Source: Antedon mediterranea
Lineage: Eukaryota > Echinodermata > Crinoidea > Comatulida > Antedonidae
Direction: 5' to 3'
DNA length: 64,000 bases
Assembly (NCBI RefSeq): GCF_964355755.1
Contig: NC_092677.1
Location: forward strand, 5,151,001 to 5,215,000
The notes beneath the pieces were generated by a model, which made no database searches, was not told the DNA's origin, and saw only the letters and a program-made list of their open reading frames with translations. Positions 3,247 through 40,473 of this stretch are shown here, piece by piece. The translations under genes and the position numbers were made by a program. Positions within the stretch are counted from its first letter, which is position 1, and each line of letters starts with the position of its first letter.

Positions 3247-4980
3247 TTAGCTTGATTTTGTGAGTTCCTATATTGAGAAATTTCTATTCAAATTTTGTCA
3301 CATATACACACTTGTAAAAGTAATTATTAATTGATGTAAAACAATTTGAAATAGTATCAATATGGGGGATTATGGGGATTGTTCTTACTTAAGAGGTAAT
3401 TTTTTATTTAAAAAGTGAAAAGTTTATTCCGTAAAGTAATAGTAGTATTAGTCTATAGGGAATATAGGCGCACACTGACAATGAAATATAAAATGGTTCA
3501 GGACCCCAACAAACTACACATAATACCACTAGCCACTAGTAGCATATTTAGAATCAATTTCTTTTTCATTTAGAAACATTTATTAAACAACCAAACAGTT
3601 ATTATCAACAGTAGAATAGGCACTGTGTTCATTCATGCATGGAATTCCCCCAAAATGTAGTGCCACAGGGGATTTTATTTTCCGTTCCGGAGTTCCTCCA
3701 TCGGTTTGTTTCGGACACGATCGAATCTTCGGTAAAGCTGCTCATCAATGCGTGACAATGTATCCACAATCACAATTTATATTTTTTTTATTCCTACACA
3801 CATCCATAGTCAATTGACCTGTGACGTCACAGCAATTTACGGCGATGGCTTTACGGCGAGCGTGTGCGGCAATATCTTTAATCTCGCGATTGTTCTGAAA
3901 TCATATGTACATCCCTAATACGTTGTAAAAATATGGTCCTCATCAAGTTGTCCTTTAAAAAGTAGGGTAAAAACAAACACGTTTTTTTCATGTGCGACAA
4001 ATTTTTTAAAACAAAAAACTCCTCAATCTAAGGTTTAGATACTAATATTTATGAATCAAGTAAAAACGAATTGGGGAAATTCTTTTGCGCTCCGTGCCAG
4101 AGCCACAAAGTTCTAAGAAATTCAAAGATCTTATTTATCCATGGCAAGATCAATAAGATGTACCTATTGTTCTCTATCTAGAGCTTTAAGCCAACCTTTT
4201 GCAACGAGAAACAAACTTTAAAGGTAAACTGAAAGGTCCTGAATATTTTTGAATTACATTTTATTATAAACACAAACTAAAAATAAATTGCTGGTCAAAT
4301 TTAAAAAACTAACCCATATAAGAAATTAAGCGATTACTATCTGAGCTCAACATTATAACTTGCTTAGCTTCATCAAGCCTGTTATGTTTTCCAGTAGGTT
4401 AATTTTTTGAGTAAATTGAACATTTTCGCATATACGCATGTGCAGTTTCATTTTTATAAACAAAGTTTTCCATTATTGCATGTGCTGAGTATATGTGGAA
4501 ATGTTCGATTTGCGTGAACAAATTCACCTAGTTGAAAACAGGCTTTATTTATTTATTAAACTTTGTAGCTCTAAGTAGCTCTAACAGCTGTACAGCTGAC
4601 TTGAAGAGGCCCTCTAACCTTTCCCATATATTAAATTGTTATTTCAATTCAATTCAAAATTAACATTTATTTCCAAAATGGTGGCGTCAACAATAAAGCA
4701 AAAGCTTGTGTCAGGGACGCCAAAACAAAACAAAACAAAAGCAAACAAAACATATATATACAACACAGAAATGAAAATAACAATAAGACATTTTGTATGT
4801 TTTCAAATTATGCTACAATTCTCATCGAAACAGTTTTATTGCGCTTTATGGTTATATCTGTTGTGGTATCAAGTTCGAGAGAAGTACAAATTTCTTGCAA
4901 CATTGGCAAAGAGAGTCTGGAGAGTTGTTCTTGACCTTTTAATTCACAAATTACTTTCAAATGTTACCCTTCCAGCTGTA
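3247..4980. other. Intergenic, no gene recognised
   Basis: This is AT-rich intergenic DNA. A small GC- and CpG-richer island near 3630-3900 contains a palindromic TGACGTCA (CRE-like) site at about 3822-3829. A CAAAACAAAACAAAA microsatellite lies near 4722-4745. No convincing exon was found on either strand. Confidence 0.5.
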
Positions 4981-5918: not shown

Positions 5919-6689
5919 TATCTTCAAAGATAACATAAAGAAAGTTGATTTATTTTAAAATGTTAAATGCATGTGCGCATGTAACTTTTTTTGAAACACA
6001 CATGTTTACTCCACAGAAAGTTTACCCTTTATATGAATTCAGTTTTCACCAAGTGTCAATAAAATATGACTTTTGGTCAATTTAGTTTACTATCAGGTGC
6101 CTAAAACCTTGAAATAATTTCCTATTTGGATCATAATATTACAGAAGAGAAATGTTTCTTTATTTGTTGATCCAGACTGTAAAAAAGACCAACAGTCTAC
6201 TTGAGAAAGCAAACTGAATGTTTGCCAAACGTTGTTGTAAGTACCATTTTAAGTACTTTGGATCTATTGTACAGTAACAACAAATAAGAAAAATAAAAGA
6301 AAAATTTCTCTTCTTATCAGCTGCCTATCTATAGATAGCTACATCATGTTTATTAGTAAACTTTTTCATGTTTGTTACTAAGGTCCTGTGTCTTTCTGCA
6401 AAAAAATAACCAGTTATTAACCATGTGAATAAATTTAACTCTAATTTCTTGGCAGTAGAAACAGAACAAATGTGTAATACCTGGTTAAATGGCAGCCTGA
6501 AAATAACGGTTAAAAACACTCAATTAATTTGTTGTTAGAACGCCATTGAACCGGTTAAACCCAAATGGAAAGTTCATGTCAAAAAAACATTTAAATGAAA
6601 TATAAACATTTAATACATATAATTTTACAATGTATTTTAATATTACATAGCCTATGTAAATACGTGAACGTGATTGGTTGAAACTGCAT

Positions 6690-6955
6690 CACATGACAAC
6701 CACTGCGAGGATCGTAAATCGTATATATCCTCGAGAACGATGATATTGACTGAGTAATTTTCGCGTAATTATCGTGTCCCTGTCATTAATCATATAAATT
6801 CTCGAGTTCGATGATATTGACTGTGTAATTTTCGTGTGGCAACACTCACGTTAAACAAAAGTCATCTACTGGATCTTGAACCTGCGATGGAATGCGGTGG
6901 AATTGTCACCTCCATCAAGAGACAACGCTTCACGCACTGCGCCACGGAACTTGCT
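6690..6955 (-). mobile_element. tRNA-derived SINE with internal tandem repeat
   Basis: On the minus strand a tRNA-like head runs from about 6950 to 6862. It has an A-box-like TGGCGCAGTGCG (6933-6944) and a B-box-like GGTTCAAGATCC (6871-6882) at tRNA-like spacing. The body downstream contains two ~37-bp near-identical blocks, at about 6730-6767 and 6800-6837, each carrying CTCGAG and GATGATATTGACTG. This is the structure expected of a SINE rather than a functional tRNA; no cloverleaf was verified. Confidence 0.6.
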
Positions 6956-7401
6956 TGAAGAAAATCAACTAAAATATTTAAACTATGCATACATAGCGCC
7001 CTCATTTGTTATTAGTCCTCCCTAGATGTGATGAAAGATCATTTGTGATTGGTTAATACTCACAGTAGTAACCGGTACGCGCGCGACGCACGATACTCGC
7101 AACTGAACATCCGGTGATTCGGCTCGAAGGAAGAAGACGAATTGTTATTTATTCGGCCTATGATAATATTATTATTATTAATGTAGGCTTATTGATGGAA
7201 ATTCTTCTGTTATTATTTAAACGACCTAGGCTAGTGAATATTTTATTGCCAAGGAATCATTAATTAGTAATTATCTGTATATTATTCTTCACAAGGTAAG
7301 GTGTCTAGGCAGCTTGTTTACATACAATACAACAAGGAGGCTTAGATAGCCTAGCCTAGCTTCACCCGACCCAGCAGACTTGTTCTTGGCTATGTAATAT
7401 A

Positions 7402-7588
7402 ACAGATATCGCCTTTTATATCGGTAAAATATAAGATTTAACATCCCCTCGGGATGATATTATGTTCTCGGGGAATTATATATATCCCTCAGCTGCCGCT
7501 TCGGGATATATATATTCCCTCGAACATAATATCATTCCCTCGGGGATGTCAAATCTTATATTTCACCTCTAAGCAGGCAATATCTGTA
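7402..7588. mobile_element. Fold-back MITE
   Basis: An almost continuous inverted repeat. Left-arm elements ACAGATATCGCCT and AAATATAAGATTT..ACATCCCC are mirrored by GGGATGTCAAATCTTATATTT and AGGCAATATCTGT on the right. The centre is CCCTCAGCTGCCGCTTCGGG. There is no coding capacity. It fits a miniature inverted-repeat transposable element able to form a long hairpin. Confidence 0.75.
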
Positions 7589-8102
7589 TAATGTTGATTA
7601 TTTATCTGATCACATGGCCTACAACATAATGATATGCTTATGAATAGAAATAATCTACAATAGGTAAATTGATAGAAAGTAAATTATTAAGTGTGATTTC
7701 ATTCCAAATATGGAAATGTGTACAAATTCACAATATTTTAGCATACTTATATTGTAGATAGATCATCAAATTCCTATATGTGTCCATTTTGTTACAAAAT
7801 TACTATTTATTTGTTACGATTTGAATAAAAGGCAGTTAGTGTAGAGTATAAGCTATAGAATATGCTATATGGTGAGTAGTTGTATATTAAAACAATACTT
7901 AACTAACTATAAATTGGTCAACTTCTTATTTCAGAAAACTAGATACAAAACTCATATTTAATAAACATACAACTTAAAAACCTAAAATTTATGACTGACC
8001 GACATATATCTATACATTGTATAGCCACCAACCCACTCTCATAATCAAAATGTTAGGTAGATATGGTACCTACCTCCGTTTTACGAGGCCAAGCTGCAAG
8101 CA

Positions 8103-11100
8103 TTACAATGGATTCGTAATCAACGCCTCGCAATCTTCTTTCACTTGCTCAAATGACGGCCGATCTTTGCGTTGCGTCATCCAACAATTTTGCATTATGT
8201 TATACGCGTCGTTTGATATGTTATACGCTTCAGAATGATCACGGCGTGGCTGCGACTGCTTTAGTCTACCGCCACCCTCAAGAAAATCAACAATGATTTT
8301 GATCGACACGTATTTTCCTTGATCATCGATATACCTGGATGGAAAATCAAACAAAAACCAAATTTAGGCTTAGTTTTTTACTCAAAAAAATTTAAAAGGA
8401 AACAAAATTATTTATTTACTTACGTTGGGGCATTTCCATATGTAAACATCTCCCACATCAACACACCAAAGCTCCAAACGTCACCCTCACGACTAAACTT
8501 CCGATGTCTGATGCATTCTGGTGCATACCTGAAAAAACAATAATACTCTTACATCACACCAAAGATTTCTCGAAAGAATTCAACGATTTACAAGAAGTGC
8601 TGCTTAAGTATTCAGCTAAAAGAAGGAAAATTCTATATTTTTATAAAAAGTACATTATTTACAATGAGGAAGGATTCATGCTCATGATGTACAATAATGG
8701 TTCACCAAAAAGCCTCCCATGTCAGGGGGATTACCACCTATCTGATAAGACAGTGATTAATTTAATATTGGTAATCCTTGGTCATTTGCCTAAAGACTTA
8801 TAAAAAATAAAAAGATAAATAAAAAATGTTTATATGTGCTCGTCAACGGTCAGCAAGGGAGCAATCTTGCATAAGACGTGGCATAATAAATACACACAAG
8901 TAGTGAAATGTATTATTAACAATGACACAAACTTACCATTTATAAGGCGTGTCTTCACTGCCTCTAACAACATAATAGTCACTATCTGACCCAAAACTCT
9001 TGGCTAGGCCAAAATCAGTGATTTTGACATGGTGTTCACTAGCCACTAGAATGTTGCTAGCAACTAGATCTCGATGCACAATACATGTGTCCTTGTGGTT
9101 GCCAAGGTAATGCATAGCCTAGAAAAATGAGTGATTATACAAATAATTATTTCATTTTGGCACATTGCCAAGGACTGTCAAAGGTTGATTTAACGTTTGT
9201 CCTTCGTCTATCATCCTCAAACGAAAGCTTGTTACATAGTGTATAAGTCCAGTATTAAACATTGGTTTGTTTAATTTGAATTTAATTGATAATTTGAAGT
9301 CCGGCCTTGATCTATCGATTCAAAAGTTACTTACTGCACAAATCTGAGTACAAAATAAATACAACACGTCATCAGACAGAATGGACTTTTTATCTTTTAG
9401 ATAATGTTTCAATGCACCAAGTGGAAAAAATTCTAAAACTAATCTGAGACATCTTCCTGCAAAATAAAGGAAAAAGATAATTAAATAAACAAATTGTCTA
9501 AATTACCTTTTTTCCTACAGCGAGCAACTTACCAAAACTGTCATGGACCTGCCAAATGGCAGATGACAAGGTAGACAAGGTAGGTATTTAAAATAACAAT
9601 AGATATCCAGATTCGAAAAGGGACAAAAAATGCATTAAAGTAAACAGTTTACCTTTTGAAACACCTAAAACTTTGACAATATTGTCGTGTTTTAAACAAG
9701 ACATCAACTGAATTTCACGCTTGAACGCATCGAAGTACTTGTCATAATTCTTCTCTTTCAACATTTTAACAGCCACAATTTTCTGAGGTTCAGTCGTGAA
9801 ACCAGAATCCACTTTCCAAATTGCTTTGTTAACTTTCCCATAAAAGCCCTTAAAAAATAGGAAATTAGATTAAACTATTTATTGCAATGACTGCCTCATA
9901 CATTTATACATTAAAAAAAAAATCATACATTATTACAGTACAAAAATGTAATTACTGCAGTAATAATTTTGACATTACGTGTCAATAACATAACATATAG
10001 TTTAAAGGTTTACAAGGCAATTAAATATTTAAAATACTTTTAAAGTCAGGTTTGCAGTATACAAGCATCACAACTGAACTATCAACTATACTTTATACTT
10101 TTTACAGAACGCTCCAAATCATAGAGGGTTGTTTCTTTTACAAGTTAATAGAGTTTTTTTACAAAAGCAGACTATAAATGAAGCATACCACTCCAAGTAA
10201 TTGTTTAATGTGGAGATTGCTGTCTGGTATGTAAGGCAAGTGAAACTCTTCATCTAAGGTAGGCATTGATTCCTCATCTATTTCATAGTCATCCTGCGAA
10301 AGCAAATACACAATACAATACAACTTTTGGAATAAAAAAAACAAACTTAAAAAGAGTAAATTTATCCTATAACATGGGTGTGAAAACATAGGCAAAATTT
10401 TCAACAGATTTGTGTATTTTACAAGAGCTATAAAAATACATATACAGTGAACACATCACTTAGGATACACCTATTTAGAGGACACTTTTGGGGTCCCAAA
10501 GGTGCCTTGTGAATAGAACAAGACCGTTAGGCACCAGTCATACAAATTAAGCACTGAATTTAACAAGCAAATATAGAATAATGTTCCTTATTCAAATATT
10601 CACAGGAAAAGTTGCGTTAAAGAGATTTGCATTCTGAGATGGCGGCAAAACTGGAAGGTCTGTTTAAAAAATAATGATACACAATATTAACTAGATTTAA
10701 TTCGTCACTATGACAAATTATAGGTTATATGCATTTGATTGAAATAAAGATAATTGATTTGTAAAAGATATATTGATTGATTGATTTTCTCAGAATCTTT
10801 AATTATTTATAATATATGCTAAGATCTTGCTAATGCAAATACAATAGCCGGTATCGCAATCCGATCAAAGATCCCTCTGCGTATAATGTCATAAACCATA
10901 TTTGTTACATAATAATAAAGACATAAGTTTCTTTTTATCTAGATTTCATTATAAATCATGTGTATAATCTATACACTAAGAAATAAAATTGAACAAACAA
11001 TACAAATAATAAAAAAAAAAATTTATTTCGTCTCGTTACCCAAGGTGAGGCTCGATCTCGGTACCTTGAATGCCATAATCACGAGCACAGACCACCGAGC

Positions 11101-14100
11101 CATACACAACTTACTAAAACATGTAGAAAGATTCCTCCGTGTATTTACTATTCAGTAGCCACTTTGGTGCAGATAGATTATTACATACCGCAATGAATTA
11201 TAATTTATTACTATGATGACATCTTTAAAAATTTAAAAAAATGATGCACTGTCAAACTATATACTTTTAACTTTAATATATGAACTTCTTAAGAAAGAAA
11301 GTTAATGTTAAGTTTGTTATTTCGGCCTAAGAAAATGTCAAAATTTGTTTGATTGTCGAAATAATTTTTTTTTAATTCAATATGCAATTAATGATGACTT
11401 AATCAACTTTTGTTCTCTTAATTTGATAATAAATCATACATATGATACATACACTTCAAGAAAATGAAATAAAAAATAGGTGTTCCCCAGCATTCTGACG
11501 ATATATATTAATTTTAAAATTTAGCATATTTTCACTATTTTGTTAACTTATACGTGCGTAGCCTGTCACTTTTGACGTGCTCGTATAACGCAATTTCGAG
11601 TTGAAAAGTGAATCAAATATGATGATATTATTAAAGAAAGGTTGTAAAACAGAAATCGGGAAAAAATAGTGCGCATTAACGTTTAACGCGCAGTGCGCGT
11701 GCAAAATTCTGCGCACTCGTGGCAATTTTTTAAACGCTTAAAATTGCCTGAAACGTACTCTAATTTCATCGAAAATAAATTTTGACAATTTTAAAACTTT
11801 TAAGCGCGCGTACGCATGCGTTATATGCGCTACGCACGTAATTATATTGCCATATGATGAAATATGACCTGAAATTTATGAGTACCAAATTTTGTTTAAA
11901 AGTGATTCGTGCTTGTGAAGATATGATTACAAACGTGATTTCATTAAATCGCGCATAGACCGCGTAATTTATGATTGCGCACCGTGAAAACATGACCACA
12001 TCGATTCCTGGCCATAAGGAATATACTCTGAAAAATTGACTTAGCTAGATGAAACTGATATCAAGATAATTCACGGACAAAATAGTGCTAAGGAAAGAAT
12101 AAATAAATAAATAAATAAAGATCCTGACAGAATCAAGAGGTTATATGCATATCATGCATATAACCTAATTATGCATTTAGTAACATTCTAGGTACCATTA
12201 TATAGTAATAGCAGAAGATTATGGGCCCGGTCAGGCTTAGTTATTTTAATTCGGTAAGTTGGTTCCTATCTACTAAATAATAATTGTGCCCATGAAACCA
12301 ATGACCCAATTAAATAGCTAAGTTTACGTTTACTTCCAAATGATTTGAAATTTCTAAATATGCATAATATTTAATTACAAGGTACAAACATCTTAATCTT
12401 AAAAATTATTATTATTATCCAATAAATATTATCTATACAAAAAAAAATATTTTCAGTGTTGTAGTTTTTGTACAATACACTAGGCCTAGAGAATTAACAC
12501 ATATTCCAAAACCAAATTATAATAAAGTATTGTATTTACCAACTTCTGTTAACCTTTTTTCCACATTGACAGCATTATTGTCACCACCAGGAAATGGTCT
12601 TTCATCTGGCATCTATAAACATAAAATAAATTATTAGAGTTGTTATTTCATTTAAAAAAAGGGACAAAAAAAAGCGCAGATTGCTGAAATTGTAAATATT
12701 TCAGTTCCCCAAGATGACATTTTGATACATTTAGAATTAAAATTGTATCTCTGCATAAATGTCAGCTTCTGGTAATGGTCTGTCACCTAGTATTAAAGTA
12801 CAACTTTACTCAGAACCATATTTTGACAACATATTTAAGGGATGTAATATGATTTCAGAACAATTGCGAGATTTACGATATCGCCACGTATATCATCATA
12901 CTTAAGTGGGCTTAGCGAAATCTCCCACATGAGTTTTCACTTTTGTTAACATACAATACAAGATATAGTTACCCATCATTTCATTTGCTATTTTGACCCG
13001 CATTAGGCTTAAATTTGCCAAAATGTTTAGTCTAATTAGCATAATTGTCACCTTCTGGTGAGCGCAATGAGCAATGACTTTTGAAATGGTGCTATATACA
13101 TCAACGATTGATAGTTTGATTGATATTGGTGTTGATGAAATGCGCTTTGGCCATTCATTGTGTGCTGATGATAAAACATAAAATAAGGAGCAATATCAAC
13201 CATGTTTCATGTCCAGTCTCGACAGCCAACACACTAACCGACCGTGCCTATAGAAAACTTGAAACAAATTAACTTAATCCATTTGTACCTTAAACCCACA
13301 AAAACAGTTTTACTACTTTCTTTCAAAAACCCCAGGCACATTTGAGTAAAACATTATTGAGATTGGATTTAAGAACACACCTCTATAAAATCTTTGACTT
13401 CAACCTCCATTGTAATAGACAAGTCCTGCATGGTTTGCAGTATATCTAAAATACTTGGCCTTTTCATTCTGTCTGTCTCCCAACAACTATGCATCATATC
13501 CTTTAACTTAGAGGGCATTTCATCATTTAGTGGGTAATTACCATCCACCTTCTCAGTTTTATGTGGTTCACGTAAGGTCCTCATTTCCCATATCACAACA
13601 CCATAAGAATATATGTCTGAACGCTTTGATACCATTATCCTTGACCCACGGCCTTTAAAAAATGCCTCAAAGTTTTCAGGAGCCATCCATGGAAGAGAAC
13701 CAGTATATGTAGTAGTAACTGTCTCATCAGTTATGCAGGAAATTCCAAAGTCACAAACTTTCAAATTATATTTATCAGTAATTAAAAAATTTAACGATTT
13801 GATATCACGATGAATTATATCAAGTTCATGAAGATACTGTATTGCAAGAGCGCCTTGCCGTGTCCAGGTGAAAAATGTTTCATTCTCAAGAAGTTGCTCC
13901 TGTTCTCGTTTCTGGCTTAAATAATGATGTAATGATCCATTAGCTGCATATTCCATTATCATACAATCCATATGATCTTTCTTACTAACCCCTAGAATCT
14001 CTGTTATGAATTTTCTACCAATATGTTTTTGTTCTTCGTCAGCTTTAATTTTTCTTAATACAACAATTTCAATTTCTCGAAAATGGTTGAGACGTTTAAT

Positions 14101-14272
14101 CGCAACAGGAAAATCTTTTTTAGTTTTCCAAACCCCTTTCAACACACTGCACGTTCCACCATGTCCAATAAGTTCTCCAAATTCAATATCATTACATGGT
14201 ATTTCTAAAATCTCAGGATATGGTTTGATCACTGTTTTATTACTTGCCATTATTGTTGCTCAAAGTGGAGAT
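8103..14272 (-). CDS. Tandem TKL + JAK-JH1-like kinase, 9 coding exons
   Basis: Coding exons on the minus strand, 5' to 3': 14250-13381, 12612-12540, 10659-10604, 10293-10189, 9848-9653, 9456-9335, 9118-8937, 8528-8424, 8334-8103. Phases join exactly and total 1941 nt, giving 646 residues. The 5' UTR part of exon 1 (14251-14272) has an in-frame TGA, which fixes the ATG at 14250. Kinase 1 (about 20-285) is TKL-like: [20 protein letters not shown]. An acidic linker of about 75 residues follows. Kinase 2 (about 365-640) has [20 protein letters not shown] in place of the tyrosine-kinase HRDLAARN, DFG, twin activation-loop tyrosines (DSDYYVV) and KWYAPE. The twin YY, WYAPE and the REIQL..HDNIV N-lobe are hallmarks of JAK JH1. 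Catalytic residues look complete in both. There is no FERM, SH2, signal peptide or TM, so it is presumably cytosolic. The 56-bp exon has a weak GTGAAT donor. An alternative is two separate genes. Confidence 0.8.
8335..13380. other. Introns of the tandem kinase gene
   Basis: The longer introns hold repeats: a tRNA-like SINE at 10999-11108, an (AAAT)n tail at about 12100-12120, and a perfect 13-bp-arm palindrome at 12138-12166. The stretch 11200-12000 is AT-rich with CpG-containing patches and no exon signature. Intron 12613-13380 has no recognisable element. Confidence 0.5.
10999..11108 (-). mobile_element. tRNA-like SINE
   Basis: On the minus strand there is an A-box-like TGGCTCGGTGGTC (11090-11102) and a B-box-like GAGATCGAGCCTC around 11047-11060, followed by an AT-rich tail with a homopolymer run. 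Spacing is tRNA-like but the ends do not pair as a tRNA acceptor stem. It lies inside an intron of the tandem-kinase gene. Confidence 0.5.
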
Positions 14273-14589
14273 CTGGAAAGACAAATAAATATGTACATTA
14301 TTATTTATACGCTATGTTTTTTACTCTTACTATCTCCACTCTCTATTCACCAGCCTGTGCCTTCTTTGTTATACTTCCTCCAATCCACTCTACTCAGGTA
14401 GCTATATTCTTACTTATTTCCAAGTATTCTCAGTAGCACAGAAGAAGGATTAGTGCTATCTAAAAAGCTTCCGGCTGTTTTAATTTATCATTTTGATTTA
14501 GCTTTTTTCTAGGTAGAGGAGGTCTCAAGTTAATAGCTAAAACCATTCCTAAAGAAAAATTACATCAACTGAGCCCTAACAAACCTAGA

Positions 14590-14830
14590 ATACTCTAGGT
14601 AGAAATCAATTTATTATTATTCATTTATTTATAAAGCACCTTTCCAAAGAAAGATCAAAGTTCTGTACATAAAATTAACAGTATTAGCAACAAACAAAAT
14701 ATAAATGTGCTACTGTACTTAGAAAACAAGTAAGTTTGGAGGTGTTTCTTAAAAACACTAGAACTAGAGCCTGGCCATCACCAAAGGGATGCTATTCAAA
14801 AGTTTAGGATAGAAAACGCACAGTCACCAA
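14590..14830. repeat. Interspersed-repeat fragment
   Basis: It begins with TTATTATTATTCATTTATTTATAAAGCACC, given here only as a landmark for a TTATT/TTTATAAAG-type repeat start. It continues through sequence that looks like a non-coding dispersed repeat. Related TATTATTATTACTTGTATAG starts occur near 26338 and 43970. Family unknown. Confidence 0.3.
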
Positions 14831-24137: not shown

Positions 24138-26034
24138 TTATTCATCAATAACATTATTACTGATGTACTGTAAGACATCACAATACACGTCTACACCATG
24201 CTGAGAGCTAGGTCTTAATGGGCTGATTTCTTCTTGTAGCTGATGATACACTTCATCCATCAGTAGATTTCGTGGCTCTTCAACTACTACATGCCCTCTT
24301 GCTCTTTCATCTAATTCCAGATCCGCTGCAACATGCTACCAAACAAAGAAATAATAAAAATCCATTATTTACCAAAATTTATTTATTTGGACCTTTTATT
24401 AATTTAGAAGAATTTCGAGGTTAATAATAAAGGGCAAAATGAGCTTTAGGATGTTTCGCCTCCAATTACATTTTCATCCAAAATAAAAATAAAATGTTGT
24501 CAATTACCTCTTGCAAAACATCATCAAAGCCAGTGTACTGTTCAACCTGCCCATCAACCCACAATTGCAAAGGAGTCTTTCTATTTTCCGTTCTTATTTT
24601 ATGGTTGATCCAACCATTAAACCAATCTTGAAGTGATCTATTAATTCTCGGAGTGAATACATATTGTAATGCAAACAATTGGATCTCATCTAATGTATCC
24701 AAATCCCCAGAGTTTTCCAAGTGGGAAAATAACTGATAAAAATACTGTTAACATCCTTGGAAAACGTCTCCCCAAAGTCTTTCTATTCTCTGGTTGTGGG
24801 TGCTCTTCCCAACTATTAGACCTGGTTCACCTGTAAAATGCACATTGCCAAGTTGTTGTAATATATTCAATTTTACTACAATATACAGTGTTAACAAAAA
24901 ATACCATAAACAATCAAGCATTCAAAATGTATAATTGCAAAAAAAAAAACCAAAACCGGAACTATAATGCTTCATTCCTATATTTACCTCTTTTTTGTGT
25001 TATGTACTGCCAAACTTTAACATTTTCTCCTCCAGCATCTGATCGGACACGTAATGGAAGCCCGTACATTTCAACTGCTTCTTGGAATGCTGTAAGCACA
25101 GTTGATGATCGATTGTTTGTAGAACATTTTAGGTATACTGGAAGACGACTATAACCATCAACGCCACCATGAACAACAAATCCCCATCTTAAAAAAAAAA
25201 ACCAAATTTGAAAATTCATAATACCCCTTTTACACAATTTTATTGGATTTTAGATTTAATATAAAAGAAAATGCAAATAATAAATTCTGAATAAATTTCA
25301 ATAGGGCTACCGTTTTACAAAATTACAATTAATTTATTTAAGCCTCTTTTGGTCAATAATGTGGCATGTAATTACTATTTTTCTTTTGAATTATTCTGTT
25401 ATATTATGTTTCAAATTATATCAAATTAAATAAAACTCTTTTGGTTTGAATTGAAACGCCTTTCTTAGTCTATCTAATCATCTTGTTTAAACCAAACAAA
25501 CCTTATTAATTTGTGGTTGCCATCAATATGCCAAAGGTGCTTAGGTCCTTCTACAGAGTAGACACGTCTGTGTAAACGTCTCCTCCTCCTAAAATCTGCC
25601 CCTCCACCATCAATCTGTCTTAATGATTTTCTCAGATCTTTTCTTGGTACAGTTATGTGTCTATGTTTTAAATAACCTTTCATCATGACTTCTCCAGTAT
25701 TTGGGTGACTCATTAATATAGAATGAACATTATCATCTAGTGTAGCTTCATCAATGTCACTATACATTCGAGAAGAAATGCCCAAACTTTGTAATCTTCT
25801 AAACACAGTTCGGCGGCTTACAGACAAATGAATTGCAATTGAGTTGACATTGTACCCAGAGTCAAGTAACCTTTTAATAATTTGATTGTCTGAATCACTA
25901 TCCTGTTGCAGATTTTCCTCCATTTCCATTACTCTTTGACATTCTTCTTTTAACTCTGAACATTGTTCTTCATCTTCAATTCCAAGTTGATGGAATTCCG
26001 CATCAGACAGTTCAGTAACTATTTCGATAGTAAT
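24138..26034 (-). pseudogene. Integrase-core (rve-like) transposase, one nonsense codon
   Basis: Four minus-strand exons with consistent phases: 26034-25502, 25187-24988, 24830-24508, 24335-24138. N-terminal acidic/coiled segment, then a helix-turn-helix (NVNSIAIHLSVSRRTVFRRL), then a DDE core: first Asp in LWHIDGNHK, second Asp in VRSDAGGEN, Glu in NQRIERLWGDVF. The C-terminal tail ends HGVDVYCDVL..IDE. Such intron-containing integrase-core proteins are widespread in fish and marine invertebrates and are sometimes assigned to IS3EU-like transposons; I cannot confirm the family. A single in-frame TAA (24748-24750) interrupts between DVFQGC and QYFYQLF. No TIRs were found. It is either a dying transposase or a nearly intact domesticated gene. 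Confidence 0.72.
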
Positions 26035-27670: not shown

Positions 27671-30600
27671 CTAAGGATTACGTGCGTTTCGGCTGATGAC
27701 ACGGCTTGATGCTAACAGCAACGATCTTGCAGTTCGTGCACCTCTTACGTACTCGTCCCAGTATCCGTTCAATCGTTGTGTTGCAATGACGGCATGTCGC
27801 GACTGTCTTCGGATCTCATCCTCTCTAAAAATGAGCTCTGCATTGATGGCGACCATCTCACTCTCCTCGTGAAGAAGCTTACACAGCAAGTAGAAGTGAA
27901 GGTTCGCTGTAAAAGAGAACAAAACAATGTTAAATAACAAACTATACTAAAAACAAATGATGTTCAAAGAACAGAAAAAAAACTAACTTACCTCGCTTAG
28001 CTCTGTGATTGAGGCGTTGGTGGTAACCTTCCAAATCGTTGTTGGTGCGAATTTGCTGTCGGAATATCACCCAATCCATTGGACTGTAGATGTCACCATT
28101 AATCCAGTAGTCGTCCATGTAAGTCAGAAGTTCCTGGAGTTGAGGCGATTGCCCGGCGTTGCGTCGCATCCGTCTGAAGACAGCCTCCACATGTTCCACT
28201 GGTAGCGTCGGGAGAGCCATAAGTTGTCTGATGAAAAGTCGTGTTGCTGCTTGTTGGCGGTACGCTCTCTGCAGACCGACATCCTGCACCTTCCGAAAGA
28301 TTGCCTGTAAGAGAGAAAAATTAAATTGTTAGTTAAGAAAATTAAACGAAAAACGCCGAACAACGCATTTGTTGTACAAATAAAATCAATAAATAAAAGA
28401 CATCACATACCTGTGTGTAATGAAAAAGACATCCAGCAATTTCAACATTTGGTAGTACTTGGCGAATAGACTGCCATATGGATGCCTCATAGTCTGCCAC
28501 CACTTTCACCACGTTGTTTTCCGGCAACATCCGCATAACAGAGCGCAACACGGCCGTGTAGTCCACACTCCTCTTGCCTGACATCACAGCAAATAGTAGC
28601 GGTACTTGCTTCAACGATGTCCCCGTCCTGATAAAGCTGTGAATACTGAAGAGCTGGTAAAATGGATCTCTTATCAGCTTAAACGTACCGTCCAAGTACC
28701 TGTAAAGATAGTTTTAAAAATGTTATAAAACAAGTATGTACATTGTAATTTAAACAAAATGAAAGTGTACAGGGAAAAATTCTTACCACACTCTTGCTCT
28801 TCCCAGTATGAGGCCTAACAAAAAAAGCTCATTTACAATATATTAGGAAATTAAGTGTCGCCTGTGTAAATGGTGACTCCAAACGTTTTTTTAGTTATGT
28901 TAAGACAAGGCGTAAGACTGGACAAGTCAAAAACTTTGTTTTTAATGGTATACCCTTGGTTTCCGATATCGATGCGGTAAATGCATTTTCCACATTCTTT
29001 GCGTCAAACTTTAACGAACCTAATCGTAATTTCAATGTTAACCATGAGATCTGTAATTGTGTTCACCCAGATATTGTTCCCCTTAATAACATTAATATTA
29101 CTGAAAAAACTATTTTCGAGGCTCTATTGTCATTGAAACCCAACAAATCCCCTGGACCAGACGGGATTACACCTAAAATGTTATCCATGTCAGCTCCAAT
29201 TATTGCCCCAGTGTTGTGCAAAATGTTTAACAAGTTCTTAACGGATGGCTTTGTACCAAAAGATTGGAAACTCGCGAATGTCACTCCTATTTTTAAGTCA
29301 GGTAATCGTAACGATGTTAATAATTATCGACCCATATCGCTATGTTCTATTATAGGTAAGGTTTTTGAACGTATTATAGCAGATAACATTCTTTTTCATC
29401 TTCAATTTTTTGGATTTATAAGTCCCACGCAACACGGGTTTTATCCAGGTAGATCGTGTGTTACACAGGCCTCAGCGTTATATCATGATTGGTCACAAAC
29501 AATGGATGTTAGACAACCTCCTGTAATTGATGCAATATTCCTTGATTGGGAGAAGGCCTTTGACCGTGTTCCCCATGATTTAGTAATCAAGAAACTGCAC
29601 AACATGGGAGTATGTGGACCTCTCCTAAAGTGTCTTCACTCCTTTCTCAGTGACAGATTCCAACGTGTTGTTCTTAATAAGGAGCATTCTGATTGGGATA
29701 GAGTGGGCTCGGGTGTTCCTCAGGGATCAGTGTTAGGCCCGCTTCTATTTAATCTCTTTGTTTATGACCTACCTCTAAATACCTCTTCTGTTATGAAGCA
29801 GTATGCAGATGACACAGTAATTTATAAACCTGTATTCAGTCGTCATGATGCACTTACCTTACAACAGGATCTTTGTAAAATTTCCAAATGGTGTGAGGAT
29901 AATAAAATGAAATTAAATGCAAAGAAGTGTAAAGTCATGCACATAACTAGGAAACGTAATTATATCCCTCATTTTATTTATACAATCGAATCCAATCCCC
30001 TTGAAGCTGTTAATTCACATAAATATCTTGGTATTAACTTCTCACGTGATTTAACATGGTCTGCTCACGTTAATGATGTATCGATGAAATCAATGAGAAT
30101 GCTTGGGTTTATCAAACGGTTTGTAGGTTTCAATGACACCGAAATTTTACTACGACTTTTTAATGCACTATGTCGACCTGTTATTGAATATGGTGCTCCT
30201 GTGTGGGATCCACATCAAAAACAACATAATATAGCTATTAACAAGTCATTAAGACGGGTTACTAAATTGTGTGTTGAAGGCGATTTCACTGACAGGCTTA
30301 AGATACTAAATTTACCAGATATGGTTCAAAGAATGAAATTTCATAGTATAATTTTTGTAGTTAAGTGTTTGCATAATTTAATTGATTTTGATATATTTGA
30401 ATACCTTACAATTAATTCTCGGTATCCAGAGTCGCTCACCTTTAAACACATGTATGCTAGAACTAATGCATTTAAATACTCCCTGTTTGTTAATTTTCCT
30501 CGAATATGGGAATGTATCCCGCATGAAGTTCGTAACAAAGTCCTGTTTAACTTTGGGGGGTTTAGAAGGGATTTGAAAAAATGTATTACTGATATCGAAT

Positions 30601-32328
30601 TCATCTAGACTATCACTGTGTTTTTATGTCTTTTGCGTTTTTCGTACTATTAGTTGGGAAAGCCACTCGACAGTGCAGTTCTTTTGAACTGATCCACTTT
30701 TGGTTACCCGCAGGTGCTGATAGTACTTTGTTCTGTTTTGTTGAATGATGCCGTGCCTTGTTTATGATTTGTGTATGTTACCTGGAAATTGAATAAAATA
30801 AAATAAAATAAAATAAAAAAATGTCCATCATAGCATCAGTTGCAAATAAAACATGCCGTCCACCATCAATGACCACATCGTCTCGAAGAAAGCCTGGTGC
30901 TATGTTGGTTTTGGAGTTCGAATTGCAAGTTGGACGGATGCCTTGGTCTGGACAACTTTCGTCGTAGGTTGGCTTGTCTTGCGAGGCTGGAAGGTTTAGG
31001 CAGAGTAGGATGAAGAGCAATTTGACCAACACCGATGTCATCACGCATTATGGTGTCCACGATTTCAGCTGCTGAGTCGAAAGGTCGTTCCAGAGCTGTA
31101 GCTTTTATCTTACGACGGATCACGGCCACCTTACCACGTCCTGTAGAGTAAAGATGAAAGGGAAAAAGAAATACACACATTATTAATCAGTAATTCACGA
31201 TCATTTTGAGTTAAAGCGCATGATTTGCAAACATGTTTTTTTAGTTTTATATTGATCGAAACGTCGAGAAACTCAACAGTTTTCGAGAAACTCAACAGTT
31301 TTCGGAACAGATATACGTGGTGTACTTTATCAAAAATTTGATTTTGCCATGCATAATATATTGCTGAATAAAAAAAAAATGTGGATGTGAGATGATAAAA
31401 ACTATAAATGCACGTACCTGGCATCATCCCGCATATGTGCTCGTGGAGTCCTCTAGTATATACCCCATCTCTTTCTAAAACCGTTGCTTTACAGGTTAAG
31501 GCAGGAGTCCTACGGTAGCACCGCCAAGTTGTGTTCGCCCGCCTCCGATCAACCTTCTTTGTATATTGGTATCCTAGGCTATCTATCAAAGTTGCCTGTT
31601 AAATAAAAATGTCATATGATAATAAATCAAACGCAAAGAAAAGTTAGGCAAATCATGTTTCAACAGTTGGAACTTGCTTCAGAAGATCAACAAATAAAGT
31701 TTAAAATATTAATTTATAATTGGACCTGCCTCACTTCTTCCGGAGATTGCTTTATATTATTACATAAGAATAACATGTATAAGCACTGAAACAAATACTA
31801 TCTAATACGGTATAATTATTTAAAATAACAATAAGAATGTAAATTAAATCAATTCCTTTTATATCCTAGACGGATCTACTTTTTTTTCCGAAATAAAAGA
31901 TGAATGAATGAATAACAAAAATAAATTCTGAACTATGAAAAGAGCTATATAAAATACACCCTTACCTTTCCTTTCGCCGATGTGCCTTCCTCCACTACGT
32001 ACTGGATTTCGTCACCCTCGTCGTCATTTCCTGCCACAGGATTCGGCTGTGGATAAGGATTCTCCATCTCGACTTCCTGATGTACTTCTGGCTCAACAAA
32101 CTGTCCCAGGTCGGCGGCAAACACATCGATTTCATCTGGCATCGGTTGATCATTTTCAGAACATTGTCGGCAACTCCATTCAATATAACCATTCTCCACT
32201 CCTCTTAAATACTCTGCTCGCGTCACTCCACTATCACACTCGCGATGTTGCCATCTATCACACTCCTCACATAGCAGTCCTTCTTGATTCTCGATAACAG
32301 GTTGTTGGCATTCAATACAAGCGTTCAT
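27671..32328 (-). pseudogene. PHD-FLYWCH MULE transposase, broken
   Basis: Minus-strand exons: 32328-31966 (PHD-like finger, CIECQ..CEECDRWQHREC..WSCRQC), 31595-31418 (FLYWCH finger: GYQYTKK, TWRCYRR, CKA, HEH), 31141 down to about 30824, a short piece ending near 28786 (LGLILGRARVW), 28699-28411 (MULE core: YLDGTFK, Asp of VVADYEASIW, CLFHYTQ), 28304-27992 (ALPTLPVEHV, TNNDLEGYHQRL) and 27906 to the stop near 27673. The start chosen is MNACIEC at 32328. Two lesions are visible: a one-base frameshift near 30910-30925, between LQFEL and IAPGFLRDDV, and a ~2-kb LINE inserted after ATDAMMDI. The remaining splice junctions keep phase, so decay is recent. Confidence 0.85.
28817..30823 (+). mobile_element. 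5'-truncated CR1/Jockey-like LINE inserted in the MULE
   Basis: A plus-strand ORF is open from the very edge of the insertion (about 28820) to the TAG at 30606-30608. Reverse-transcriptase motifs in order: NKSPGPDGITPKML, NYRPISLCS, FLDWEKAFDRVPHDLV, GSGVPQGSVLGPLLFNLFV, QYADDTVIY (catalytic ADD), and a thumb/C-terminal region with KSLRRVTKLC. The endonuclease half is missing (5' truncation). The 3' end is a (AAAAT)n tail at 30790-30823. The RT ORF has no stop or frameshift, indicating a young insertion. Clade is inferred from motifs only. Confidence 0.88.
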
Positions 32329-34481: not shown

Positions 34482-37400
34482 TTATAAATCAAGAACGTAG
34501 TCAGCGAGATGTCTAGGAAATCTGCGTGAACGTGTGGATGTGCGATGAGACAACTGTGCTGGAACTTCCATTGGTGATTCTTCCGGGGTCTGTATGGATG
34601 ATGACTTGTCGTTCACCTCATCAGGAGAGGCAGAAAGAGTTGACGGTACCTCGGGTGGAGGAAATAGAGACGGATCAACTGTGAAATCAGGTTCTTCATC
34701 AGAGGTGTCGCAGTGGCGTTGTGAGGTTGGTGTGGGAGAATGATGAACGTCAGTCGGTACAGTAAAACACTCTGATTTCTTTACACGATAAGTAGCGCTT
34801 CTCAATTGTGAGTGCGTAAACTTTCGGACGTTGCACCACTTTCCATCTACAGAAACAACGAGATAGCGATCTCGTGCACAGGTCTTGCGACGATCTGTCC
34901 ACAGGTAGACTAAATCACCAACCGTAATAGAAACGTCAGGTGCTGCACACGCGACGGATGCCTTAGACTTTTCGCTGTGCGCGTGATTAGAGGCTCTGAG
35001 GTGCTGTTGGCTGATAATCAACTTGCGGTCAGAAATAGGGATTTGGTCATGAGTGAACTGATCTCGCTGTGTCCACATTTCGCGAGACGACAATCCTCGT
35101 GTTCGGATACGGGAGTTAAGACGAGATGTGGCGACAGCAAGCACCGTCGGTGAGATGGGACCACCACCAGGCTCTTGCCGAAGTAACTCTTCTGACAATT
35201 CGCGTACAGCTTTCTCTCCAACCGGGTTTTTGTTGATGTTCTTAACTCTGCCAATTTCGATCGAAATCCTATGTTTCAGTAAGACGGGATCGTGGACGAG
35301 TGCCATGAAGCCCGGGGCAGGGTCTGTGCGGATGGTTGCTGAGGGGCCCTCCACGGGGCACATGCCAATGCATAAGCGAATCAAGGTATCGCGGCGGAGA
35401 GTATCGTGCTTCTCATCGCTGATTAAACACGAAAGGGTGTAAGACGTCACCGTCTCTCTGACAACAAGAATAAGTTGACGCTCGCGTTTTAGGACATCGG
35501 CGGCAAAGGTGACTCCGAGCTTCGACGGAGGATCATCAGTGGACTGCTCAATTGCAGTGGTGGGTACAGTACGGATCGAGCCACAGTGATGACACGATTC
35601 TGACACCTGTTCGATGGTTTTGTCCAAGTCAAGCGCAAAGAAGTGGCGGCGAACGGATAACTTAAGTTGGTGACTAGTTGGGTGATCTAGCCGGACGTGA
35701 AGTGATGTCAGCAGTCCGTTTAATACGGGGCGAGGGACAATAATACATTCATGCTTAAGTGAGAGTGGTTCAGTGCGGTTGACTACAAGGAGACCATCTC
35801 TTCCAATGGAACAACAGTTAAGGTACCGTTTAATGTCCCTGACATTGGTTAACTTTTTAGATGGGCGCGTTCCTTGAATAAGATGAGCTTTTACACGCCG
35901 AAGGTCAAGACACTCGGATTGGATGGCTAGCCGAGCTGGCCGACTGGTGAACGGGAGTTTGGCGTCTCCAGTAATGAAATCACGTATCGATGAACGTAGT
36001 ACCGTTGACTCTATCGCGCCGTTGACAAATGAGCAAACCTGACAGTTGTCAACTGAGCATGGTGGAGCATTGCGACTAGCAAAGTCGGATGGGACGTTGG
36101 CTGAGCCTGCCAGGTGCCGAATAGAAATCTGGTACCTGCTAGCGGTGGACAGGAAGGTGGACACACGGGGACTGACTGAGAATTCTCCCCTGCATAGCTT
36201 TTCAAGCGCTTGGACGCATGGCTTACTGTCAGTTAGGACACATGTGTTATGTCGAGACTGGATAATAAAAGGACTAAAATGTTTAACGGCTGCCGCGATA
36301 GCCAAAGCTTCGATCTCGCAGGGTAGCCATGTGACCTGACGCGCACGGAGTTTGGCACTAAAAAAGCCGGCTAACTGTGGTTTGGATTCACGAGTAACGT
36401 ATAAGGTTGCGCCTAGACCATGACTTTTAACAGCACCATCCGTAACGATCCACAGTTGGTCATCGGGATGAGGTAAAACTATGACCTTGTTTGAGTCAAG
36501 TGCGTTCTGTGCTACTTTAAATGCTTCATGTAAGGCATCGTACCAATGTATTGTTTCTTTGGACTGTAAGCCGGCTATGGCTTCTTCCAGTAAAGCGATG
36601 AGAGATGCGCACTGAGGTAAAACGCGTGCTAACACCTTATATGCCCCGATAAAGGAGCGTAAACCTTTTACCGTCGGTGGTGGAGTGCATGCCTTTAACG
36701 TTGAAATACGATGAGTATTTGCGCGAATAGAACCTAGGGACCAGGTCCACCCAAGAATGGTTGTAGTTTGTGGACAAATCACCGTTTTGCTAGCAGACAA
36801 TCGCAGACCACACTTGTAAATGCATTGGAGTAGACGCCGCCAATTGTAAATTAACTCCTCTAAACTGTCCCCTCCACAATAAAGGTCATCCGCAAGCTTT
36901 GCTACTACTCCCTCCTTAATCAAATCCCCCAGTACCCGACAAGTCAGCTCTTCGAGGGCGGTCTCTGAACCAGGCATACCCATGGCACACCGGGCATAAA
37001 CTCTCACACCTCGAAATGGTGTGGCAACGCCGCAGTACTTCATAGAAGCGCGAGACAAAGGAATCTGGTAAAAGGCCTTTGTGAGGTCAGTAGTGATTAT
37101 GTGCTTCCATTTTGCGATGTTACGTAGAACGGAGTTGACATCCGGCATAAGGGAGGGTTGGGGTTTTGCATATCGTCCGACCTCGGCGAATGCTGTAACC
37201 AGACGGTAACCACCACTCTCTTTTTTGACAAGGAAAGATGGGTTAAGATATTCGACTTGGACACCGACGTCCTCGGGGCGAACAAATACTCCCACTTCCT
37301 CAAGCTCATCAAATTTGTCCTGTAGCTCAACCAGTTTATCTCTGGAGTACTGAGGAACTCGACCTTTCCTCTGAGGAGGCTGTACAGGTCCCATGTTAAC

Positions 37401-38369
37401 AACAGCCTGGAATGGGCCAACAGAGCCGTTGTAGGCTTTAATCATAGGATCGAAAACAACATCGTATTCAGTAAGAATGGATTGGAATTGGGATTTCACA
37501 TTCTGTGGGAGGATATGGTCTGGATCTAGCTTGACATAATCAGAAAACGCGACAGAGGAAGGAGGCTTACAGGGCTTAGATGGCGACTTTTGGGGAATAG
37601 CATTTTCGGCCGACAATGGCACAAAGGTGGGTCGGACTTGGCAAAAATGTTCGTGTCGTTTGATGACCTGAGGTGTGTCGGTGGAGTTTGGGATACGTAC
37701 CCTTCCCGCAACACTAGAGACCAAGTCAAACTTTGGCCAGGTTCGAGGAAACGTACCCTTACTATGTGGTTCGAGAGCAAACACGTCATCTTGTTGGATG
37801 AAGTCAGACGGAATGGCTACCTCGATAAATTCTCCCGGCCATATAGTGGTCTCCTTTTCAGGAGCACGAAGCACACAAGCACGTCGAACCGTGTTATGGT
37901 GAAGGCCCTGTACCTGGGAACCATAGATGTACGTGGTACCGTCACCCAATTTGATTTCCCGCTTCGCAGGTCGGAGGGCGATATCATTTAGCTCCATAAA
38001 AGGAGTTCCGGCAAGAATGTCGACGTCAAGTTTTTCGACAACGAGACCCTCAAATTTGAATTCCCTGTCGTCCCTTGTGAGAATAATTGTGGTTTCGCCT
38101 ACGACCGAAAGTGGGGAAGATCCGTCAGCCTGATGGGCAGACTGAGAGCTACTTTTAATGGTGGCGCCAAGGGCAGTGGCAGCAGTAAAGGCAATCATGT
38201 TTCCTGTAGCCCCACTGTCTAGTGTGATTCTGGCTGTGTGGTGTTGGTGAAATGTGTCAAGGTATGGGGACTGGCGAACTTGGACTCGTAAAGCTGTCGA
38301 CGGTGCACTATTATCACCAGGTTCATCCGAGGTGTTATCATCATCGATGATGCCAACGATTTGTCGGGC
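34482..38369 (-). CDS. Pol polyprotein (protease-RT-RNaseH-integrase)
   Basis: The frame is open from about 38369 to the stop at 34482; the first Met of the long ORF is at 38198. The protease active site DSGATGN lies just upstream of that Met, so translation must enter from gag. RT follows ([13 protein letters not shown], and [10 protein letters not shown], where the usual YxDD box is LADD), then RNase H ([26 protein letters not shown]), an HHCC zinc finger ([18 protein letters not shown]) and a DDE integrase core ([26 protein letters not shown]). There are no stops or frameshifts across ~1290 codons. It is probably a competent or very recently active copy. The AADV first Asp of integrase is inferred. 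Confidence 0.88.
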
Positions 38370-39303
38370 TTAAGGCCATGTATTTCCTGTCTGACTCGGG
38401 CAAATGAGGGCATTCACTGAGGAAATGCTTGTCGTCCGATCGGCCGCTCTGTTTACAGATAGGACAGGACTTGTGTTGGGAAAACTGTGGTCGGGAGAAT
38501 GACTGCCGAGCATTGGAATTTCGGCGTGAATCAGTAGAGCGGGGTGTGAAAGCTGAAGGAGAGCGAAATGTGGATGACCGAAAAACACGCGCATCATCCG
38601 CAGTTCGTAACTCTTCTAAGAGAGAGTCTAAAGCTTGAGAAATCTCCGGTTTCACTGACGCTAGAGTTCGAGTGCGGAGCTCAGTGCCATACCTTTGCTT
38701 AACCAACTTAGGAAGGCCTTTGTGGATGAGAGAGAGCCAAGTAAGAACTACCAAATTTTCCAACGAGGGTGAAAGTTCTTCGTCCTCCTGTATTTGGGCG
38801 TCATGGTGGGAAATGCCCCCGTCTTGACGTAGTAAATTATCATGGACGAAAGCAACTAAGCGCTGATAGAGATCTTCCGGCCTTTCATTATCTTGTAAAA
38901 GTATATCAGCAAAATCAATAAAATGGGCGCCGGTTGACTGGAATCCATAATGCAGTCGGATAGTTTGCCAAATTTGTGAAAGTGAGGAGGAGCTTTTAAC
39001 AATGGTATTCCGGGAAATTATAGGGCAAAAATTAGCGATCTGACCGAGCATGAGTTCAAGGATAGTGAGTTTTTGTTGGGCGGTATGACGACGTGCAACA
39101 GGTACCTCCTCATTGTCGTCAGTTAAGCCGCGAAGGGGGGATGCCCTGGTTTTGGGACGCCAAACAGAACCATCTAGGAGAAATGGGGCAAAATTTGCAT
39201 CAAGTGAGAGTGTGTAGATAAGGTTTTGCTTCCAGTTTTCGAATGTATTTATAGTTTCGTTCTTGGTTAAGCACCATTGCTTGGGTGCTCTAGTACCGGC
39301 CAT
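38341..39303 (-). CDS. Gag-like protein with zinc knuckle
   Basis: The start is chosen at [10 protein letters not shown] (39303); an upstream in-frame Met at 39345 adds LTR-proximal residues and is less likely. The N-terminal region has [17 protein letters not shown]. The C-terminal zinc-knuckle-like [19 protein letters not shown] is the nucleic-acid-binding element of Gag. The stop at 38341 overlaps the start of the open pol frame (about 38369-38341), which is in the -1 frame. This implies a -1 ribosomal frameshift within about 30 nt. Confidence 0.85.
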
Positions 39304-39501
39304 GGTAAGAAATATATACAGAAGTCTAGGTGTTGTCAGTTGCACGTGTGAAGCAACAGCCGATCGGCGCCTGTGAAAGCGTAGAGTATGTGATGATATG
39401 CTAGCTCGATTTGTTGGGCTAGGCCTACTAGATTAGGTAGGCTACTCACCAGTACTAGTCGAATAATGGTGGGTGGGCTCGTAATCGTATAGCTGCCACC
39501 A

Positions 39502-39658: not shown

Positions 39659-40473
39659 CTGCTTTAAACGTCAATTTAGCAACTTATTAAGTCGTTTCAT
39701 AAGCAGAGAATGTATAAAGCAAGTATACAATGCAGACATGTTAGATAGAAATATACTAAAAGACATGTAATAAACGTGTTAGAAGAACGTAATAATTGTA
39801 CTTTCTACACCGAGCGGCGGAAAACCCATTCACAGTCACAGTTATTTGAGCGAATACTGTACTTGGCCTAAAACACTAGCGCTGTATTTTAATTTAAATA
39901 TTTGGCTTACGGTTACGAAAATACAAGGAAACATCATTTTATAATTTTACTATTAATATTATTAGGCTATTTATTGACCTATTAAAGATCGCTAAATATG
40001 TTTTTTTTTGTGGGGGCTTAGGTACAGTAGCTCTCTATTCTAGCCTCCCTGTTGTACACTTCTCACTGTACGCCTCACATTATATAAAATAATACGACGT
40101 GAACTCTAAACAAAACCCCGATGAAAAACAATTTACATGAATTCTATAAACTTTCTTATTTATTGTTTGCCTAAACAATAGAGAAAAAATAAACTTTGTT
40201 ACATACAGTAACAGGCGGGTTCAGATTACCTAAATATGATGGTAGAGGCCTAAACAATAGAAACAAAACAAACTGATACCCACGTGTGTGTTGTCGCGGG
40301 CGTCGTACCGGGAGTTCCATATTTTACCAGTAAAAAGCTACAAAGTGATGACGTCATGGTCCACACGGCAAATACAGGCACGCGGCAATTACACATATTT
40401 TACACGCGCGACAAACGCGGGTTATGGTACATGATTTGTAGTCAGTACTGTAGTGTGTATTCATCTGTTGCAG
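39659..40473. other. Upstream region of the Ig-sialidase gene
   Basis: No exon can be confirmed. A signal-peptide exon ending in phase 1 should lie here or further upstream but was not recognised. The frame of the Ig exon stays open back to an ATG at 40284, but those residues look non-coding. Confidence 0.35.

Follow-up and report, generated by a model that had tools for sequence, protein, structure and literature searches.

A candidate chimeric gene joining a TKL kinase to a JAK JH1 domain in the crinoid Antedon mediterranea

Introduction

JAKs consist of FERM, SH2-like, JH2, and JH1 domains (PMC3296744). In the BCR-JAK2 fusion, splicing connects BCR exon 1 with JAK2 exon 19, and the product is constitutively phosphorylated (PMC3288102). 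At the level of single residues, the arginine of the AAR motif (AAR Arg) hydrogen-bonds the hydroxyl of the substrate tyrosine (PMC4771162).

We analyzed a 64-kb stretch of DNA from Antedon mediterranea (C8:5151001-5215000, hereafter the window) against the 354-Mb genome assembly of this species, for which Illumina transcriptome data are described in PMC9793003. The window holds what is best filed as a chimeric kinase gene, and not as a JAK (FERM, SH2, and JH2 are absent) or a TKL-Death kinase (the Death domain is absent). Like the JAK family, it has a JH1 domain, a recent duplicate with the same exons, the twin YY, and the KWYAPE motif; unlike JAKs, it carries a TKL kinase in front in place of FERM, SH2, and JH2, and the AAR Arg has been lost. 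The TKL kinase domain is 55-70% identical to those of the crinoid TKL-Death kinases P0002-P0004 and is followed by the same exon-2 linker, but those proteins have a C-terminal Death domain and the window copy has none downstream. Human MAP3K20 (ZAK) and MAP3K7 (TAK1), the best solved-structure matches of this domain, are distant from it, and orthology is unsupported.

Like BCR-JAK2 and TEL-JAK2, as described in PMC3288102, the locus places JH1 on a foreign N-terminus without FERM, SH2, and JH2, and, as in BCR-JAK2, JH1 and its linker are cut from the rest within an intron. In contrast to these fusions (PMC3288102), the locus belongs to a germline assembly, pairs JH1 with another kinase where they use a coiled coil, and has lost the AAR Arg. 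By analogy, the locus would be a natural counterpart of BCR-JAK2-type fusions. A TKL-JAK JH1 fusion was not named in the titles and abstract openings that our literature searches listed, a scope that does not establish absence from print.

Results and Discussion

A nine-exon open frame links two kinase domains

An initial annotation of this DNA had proposed nine exons forming a single frame of 646 codons. This model was confirmed on the minus strand from 14250 to 8103, where all eight introns have GT/AG borders and the translation yields 646 residues with a sole, terminal stop. The gene edge at 14272 had to be corrected as the start, because coding begins at 14250, with the frame open from 14259 and a stop just upstream. 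All exons lie on the minus strand. Exon 1 (13381-14250) encodes a complete TKL-type kinase domain of 290 codons and ends in phase 0 at a strong donor, and exon 2 (12540-12612) encodes the post-kinase linker of the TKL-Death family and ends at a weak phase-1 donor, GTTG/gtaaat. Exon 3 (10604-10659, 56 bp) is a JAK JH2-JH1 linker exon, assigned on the basis of the canonical JAK exon, and exon 4 (10189-10293) contains JAK linker and the start of JH1. The remainder of JH1 is distributed over exon 5 (9653-9848; glycine loop, VAVK, and helix C), exon 6 (9335-9456), exon 7 (8937-9118; catalytic loop HRDLVASN, DFG, and twin YY), exon 8 (8424-8528; APE to helix F), and exon 9 (8103-8334; C-lobe and stop). 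The twin YY and KWYAPE reported earlier are present in the translation, and PF07714 matched the 646-residue protein in two stretches (E 3.3e-114).

A second route was also in frame. Joining exon 1 (phase 0, donor 9.8) directly to exon 4 (phase 0, acceptor 11.7) gave 603 residues; this model and the nine-exon model left the frame open, and omission of exon 2 alone or of exon 3 alone broke it. The splice scores given here and below are from a weight table.

Similarity and profile searches found no FERM, SH2, JH2, or Death domain in the 64-kb window, in line with the earlier statement that FERM and SH2 are lacking. Apart from the two kinase domains' own matches, the FERM-SH2-JH2 part of Anneissia JAK matched the window with E values of 1.7 or worse. 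JAK exons lie downstream on the same strand, as they would if a larger JAK copy harbored the TKL gene in one of its introns, but the roughly 50 kb of window upstream contain no FERM, SH2, or JH2, and the JAK gene with these domains lies 3.2 Mb away; we regard such nesting as extremely improbable.

The first kinase domain resembles crinoid TKL-Death kinases

Domain 1 had been described as TKL-like, and its nearest solved structures, in searches that included a profile search, were indeed MAP3K20/ZAK (114 bits) and TAK1 (MAP3K7, 96 bits). In a quick tree of 62 rows, from which eleven of the selected proteins were omitted beforehand, the window TKL domain fell among crinoid TKL-Death kinases (support 100). 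The idea that domain 1 is the counterpart of JH2 was not sustained, as it clusters with TKL kinases and away from the JH2 rows. The initial annotation had proposed phylogeny of the kinase domains as a check; in the 62-row tree, domain 1 fell with TKL kinases and domain 2 inside the JAK group.

P0002, P0003, and P0004 are crinoid proteins, annotated as MAP3K20-like or dlk-1-like, in which a kinase is followed by a Death domain. P0002 is an A. mediterranea protein; its kinase exon matches, at 100% identity, a gene on contig C1 that comprises exon 1, a 75-nt exon 2 ending in CAG/gtgagt in phase 0, and then a Death-domain exon. Eight loci are at least 65% identical to the P0002 kinase (C1, five on C4, and two on C8). 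Topology tests allowed the pairing of the window TKL with P0002 alone (p-AU 0.108) and rejected its pairing with P0003 alone (0.00245). As a separate observation, TKL-Death-type kinases show a dispersed expansion over C4 (five loci) and C8 (two loci).

The TKL-derived duplicon of the window (TKL-a, 12441-14603, minus strand) has its nearest copy in TKL-b (C8:5143271-5145715), which lies 20 kb downstream of the window TKL and is 93% identical over window 13061-14396 in blastn. Exon 1 is 91% identical to TKL-b (C8:5145165-5144296) and 69% identical to P0002. The window copy, TKL-b, and C4_32.85M formed a clade (bootstrap/SH-aLRT 100/99).

Exon 2 is homologous to the P0002 linker (none of 2000 shuffles was as good), and this homology to the linker of the TKL-Death family rules out a TKL gene ending at 13369. 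An exon-2 match was found near four of the seven non-C1 copies, and a fifth has a short match only. In the 1.4-1.5 kb below exon 1 of the non-C1 copies, there was no clear Death domain, and the best Death domain profile matches had E values of 0.48 in the window and 0.49 in the 20 kb around and below TKL-b. A 22-residue Death-domain-like stretch in intron 1 (13168-13103, minus strand) gave an E value of 0.057 over the whole window and 1.3e-4 in a 1.5-kb search, and a shorter stretch of this kind is present in intron 1 of TKL-b (E 0.015). The window stretch lies ahead of exon 2, which is the wrong order for the TKL-Death family; its significance varies with the search space. It may be a Death-domain relic, and it has no bearing on the junction. 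Judged by these comparisons, domain 1 comes from the crinoid TKL-Death kinase family, without the Death domain.

The second kinase domain is a copy from the species' own JAK gene

The canonical JAK gene was located at C8:1958627-1978727 by ordered matches to the FERM, SH2, JH2, and JH1 of Anneissia JAK, 3.2 Mb from the window on the same chromosome. Among the 119 matches listed, those above 60% identity occurred only at this gene and in the window. The JAK-derived duplicon of the window (6080-12400, minus strand) corresponds to the 3' half of the JAK gene, complete with introns, and the adjoining 3' flank; its parent segment is C8:1957535-1964180. In blastn, 11 of the 12 pieces were 74-96% identical to the parent and one intron piece was 69% identical; the intron piece adjoining the breakpoint (12168-12400) was 79% identical (E 1e-56). 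Two stretches of the window, approximately 6645-7577 and 10690-12167, have no counterpart in the parent JAK locus and look like insertions. All seven JAK-derived exons (exons 3-9) have the same borders as those of the parent, and the equivalent canonical exons, which alone were joined and read, are open when joined.

The assignment of domain 2 to JAK JH1 was upheld by the tree and by an identity of 308/332 residues between the JAK-derived part and the JAK of the same species. In the 62-row tree, the window JH1 paired with Anneissia JAK JH1 (SH-aLRT 100) inside a 16-row JAK JH1 clade (96), outside which two sponge JAK JH1 rows fell. Against solved structures, two chains matching in two stretches led, 9p9u (an EGFR entry) and 7t6f ("tyrosine-protein kinase"), followed by JAK3 (174 bits), TYK2, and JAK1, with ErbB-4 (165) between these and JAK2. 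The bit-score margin over other tyrosine kinases is small, and therefore the JAK assignment rests on the tree and the duplicated DNA.

Exon 3 had been put forward as a 56-bp exon of exactly the 2 + 54 nt needed. By itself this is a weak argument, because 66 frame-restoring GT/AG exons are possible in that stretch, among which the 56-bp exon ranks sixth by splice score, and the similarity to the Anneissia JAK linker was not significant (317/2000 and 3370/5000 shuffles). The shuffles and the 66 candidates suggested a chance bridge, which was ruled out by the species' own JAK exon: exon 3 and the canonical exon at C8:1963900-1963845 are identical at 55/56 bases, with the same borders and one synonymous difference. 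The exon itself is therefore real. The canonical JAK exon that precedes it (~1964420-1964317) has as its sole frame-keeping donor a phase-1 GC donor, AG/GCAAGT, and falls outside the duplicated piece.

The two pieces meet within an intron

The breakpoint was placed by pairwise alignment, with the switch at ~12440-12399, and then re-examined. The breakpoint region (12399-12440, unstranded) lies in intron 2 and separates TKL-derived from JAK-derived DNA. Both source genes could be traced and the junction falls within an intron, which are features of a chimeric gene, and the reading of two pieces from two different genes that meet within an intron was thereby substantiated. The JAK piece starts within a JAK intron and lacks the 5' half of the gene, so no JAK promoter came along. 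Just past the JAK piece, window 5791-5930 matches a ~1.1-kb tandem repeat downstream of TKL-b, which fits an insertion of the JAK segment in the 3' flank of a TKL locus.

Two repeats were observed besides. The tandem array below TKL-b occupies C8:5131001-5141800 (L021 and L020 1-800) with a period of ~1.05-1.13 kb. A ~90-bp repeat at 12793-12885 in intron 1 occurs again at 3868-3958 and in L020 near TKL-b.

The JAK-derived exons are constrained

Introns 3-8 of the window and of canonical JAK differ with a K of 0.154 and 32 gap runs (1256 columns after poorly aligned ones were dropped). Over 998 exon bases, there were 47 mismatches and 0 gaps, compared with 23.5 gaps expected at the intron rate, and the pairwise dN/dS of the JAK-derived exons was 0.31 (bootstrap 0.17-0.57). 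Polarizing the amino-acid changes by the Anneissia outgroup assigned 12 to the window copy and 3 to the parent and left 9 unplaceable; if all 9 are counted toward the window branch, its total is still at most 21 amino-acid changes, compared with 61 nonsynonymous changes expected if neutral. The absence of indels, the dN/dS of 0.31, and the small number of amino-acid changes indicate that the JAK-derived exons are constrained, and the JH1 exons are under purifying selection that is weaker than that on the parent.

These results weigh on the reading that the two duplications left only dead sequence here which, even if transcribed, yields no protein. The 12 polarized changes in the JH1 copy against 3 in the parent, with loss of the AAR Arg among them, would suit such decay, but the exons are free of indels, the amino-acid changes lie far below the neutral expectation, and the TKL frame is open with HRD, DFG, and Lys intact, so dead remnants seem quite improbable.

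For the TKL half, the signal of constraint was poor: dN/dS was 0.9 against TKL-b (window branch, N 11 and S 6) and 0.39 against C4_32.85M (TKL-a/C4_32.85M dS 0.133). The divergences are discordant, with K of 0.04-0.07 between TKL-a and TKL-b versus 0.154 between the JAK copies. Possible orders of events are that TKL-b was copied from TKL-a, or homogenized with it, once the fusion existed, or that the JH1 joined by the TKL copy was already constrained.

One gene or two neighboring genes

We favor, with modest confidence, a single, young chimeric TKL-JAK JH1 gene. A segment with the 3' half of JAK (the complete JH1 along with two linker exons and the 3' flank) was duplicated, and the copy now sits directly downstream, in the same orientation, of a TKL kinase gene copy that lacks a Death domain. 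Transcription from the TKL promoter would most likely lead to splicing of exons 1-2, or of exon 1 by itself, into the JAK exons, yielding the 646-residue protein; splicing of exon 1 to exon 4 would give the 603-residue product in frame as an alternative. We infer this joined mRNA, and all of the biochemistry discussed below, from the DNA. Evidence for one gene is that exon 2 belongs to the TKL gene, that the JAK borders are kept, that the breakpoint falls within an intron, and that the JH1 exons are constrained.

The single-gene model is weakest at the exon 2 donor. GTTG/gtaaat scored 3.9 and the C1 donor 13.6, and at the ancestral donor position the score has fallen to 2.0; TKL-b, which has no JAK behind it, carries the same donor, GTTGGTAAAT. 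Reading through exon 2 of the window leads to a stop at 12517, and in the sequence contexts of C4_32.85M and TKL-b, exon 2 likewise runs to a nearby stop. Since exon 2 meets a stop in C4_32.85M and its donor is shared with the JAK-less TKL-b, exon 2 may be a terminal exon.

Two neighboring genes, namely, a two-exon Death-less TKL gene ending in exon 2 (stop 12517) and a JH1-only gene with its own promoter, are thus a possible arrangement, though a doubtful one. The early stop shared with C4_32.85M and TKL-b agrees with it, as do AATAAA signals at 11209 and 11027 in intron 2 and the JH1 divergence, which is older than that between TKL-a and TKL-b. The older JH1 divergence, together with the little constraint of the TKL half relative to TKL-b, speaks against one gene, as does a separate NCBI model, P0238 ("ZAP-70-like [Antedon mediterranea]"). 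P0238, which is 100% identical over 70% of a 356-residue query made of exons 2-9, represents the JH1 part annotated by NCBI as a separate, shortened gene, whose model start is inside exon 5; its alternative last exon (window 6953-6862, minus strand) lies in the ~0.9-kb stretch that is absent from the canonical JAK locus. As annotated, however, P0238 has neither the glycine loop nor the catalytic Lys and is an incomplete kinase. Moreover, no Antedon JAK was among the best 120 of 7978 candidates in a protein search over lengths of 621-1975 residues, where the highest identity after Anneissia's own was 44%. Because the Antedon JAK gene exists and is absent from the listed proteins, annotation of this family in the species is incomplete and the start of P0238 is weak evidence.

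A start in exon 4 also meets difficulties. The in-frame ATG of this exon comes after three ATGs that are out of frame, the duplicated segment brought no JAK promoter, and the coding sequence ahead of the in-frame ATG is conserved. Over the 83 coding bases that lead up to the first in-frame Met of exon 4, the copies differ at 1 position, compared with 11.5 expected (P 6e-5 counting both branches and 0.012 counting one branch). The sequence upstream of a stand-alone start in exon 4 thus looks constrained, a sign that exons 3 and 4 are used as coding sequence.

Catalytic residues and possible function

The initial annotation had called the protein active-looking. This description suits domain 1, which retains Lys, HRD, Asn, and DFG, and is weakened for domain 2, which retains VAVK, HRD, Asn, DFG, YY, and APE but has lost the AAR Arg. 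The catalytic loop of domain 2 is HRDLVASN, compared with HRDLAARN in canonical Antedon JAK, so the Arg was lost in the copy only. Among the best 120 of the 7978 candidates, 115/118 proteins have Arg at this position, and in the other three the pattern matched elsewhere. As the AAR Arg contacts the substrate tyrosine, a JH1 without it may be weakened or altered in specificity, and this may hold for the window JH1.

Under the favored single-gene reading, the product would be a MAP3K-like Ser/Thr kinase with a JH1 freed from FERM-SH2 receptor binding and JH2 inhibition. Because JH1 has lost the substrate-tyrosine Arg, the TKL domain would probably be the principal enzyme, with JH1 as a second domain that is weakened or regulatory, opposite to the arrangement in JAKs. 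More tentatively, the locus could encode an inherited double kinase, in which an active MAP3K-like TKL domain drives or scaffolds a JH1 released from receptor and pseudokinase control, the combination being tolerated as JH1 is detuned. That the copy alone has lost the Arg hints directly, and testably, at such detuning. If expressed, the gene would be an inherited version of the leukemia JH1 fusions and would illustrate how an animal copes with a JH1 without inhibitory domains. The locus also appears to catch kinase exon shuffling early, with the JAK parent, the TKL relatives, the breakpoint region, and later divergence readable in one genome.

Occurrence of the fusion and other elements in the window

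In a protein search in which 7991 candidates of 355-1130 residues were scored, nine proteins of the best 120 covered at least 75% of the query; the tree included each of these nine, and none joins TKL to JAK JH1. Four proteins among these best 120 of 7991 candidates are named as crinoid. With these listed proteins as the comparison, the fusion was seen in the A. mediterranea genome only.

Elsewhere in the window, an LTR-retrotransposon-like element has a long ORF with reverse transcriptase and RNase H (34482-38369, minus strand), preceded by a second long ORF (38341-39432, minus strand). A LINE-like 598-codon ORF with a reverse transcriptase domain occupies 28812-30608 (plus strand), and a MULE transposase domain is found at 28342-28713 (minus strand). 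Weak helix-turn-helix and integrase-core matches under curated cut-offs at 25474-26034 (minus strand) are perhaps a transposon remnant, and an immunoglobulin V-set exon lies at 40254-40796 (plus strand).
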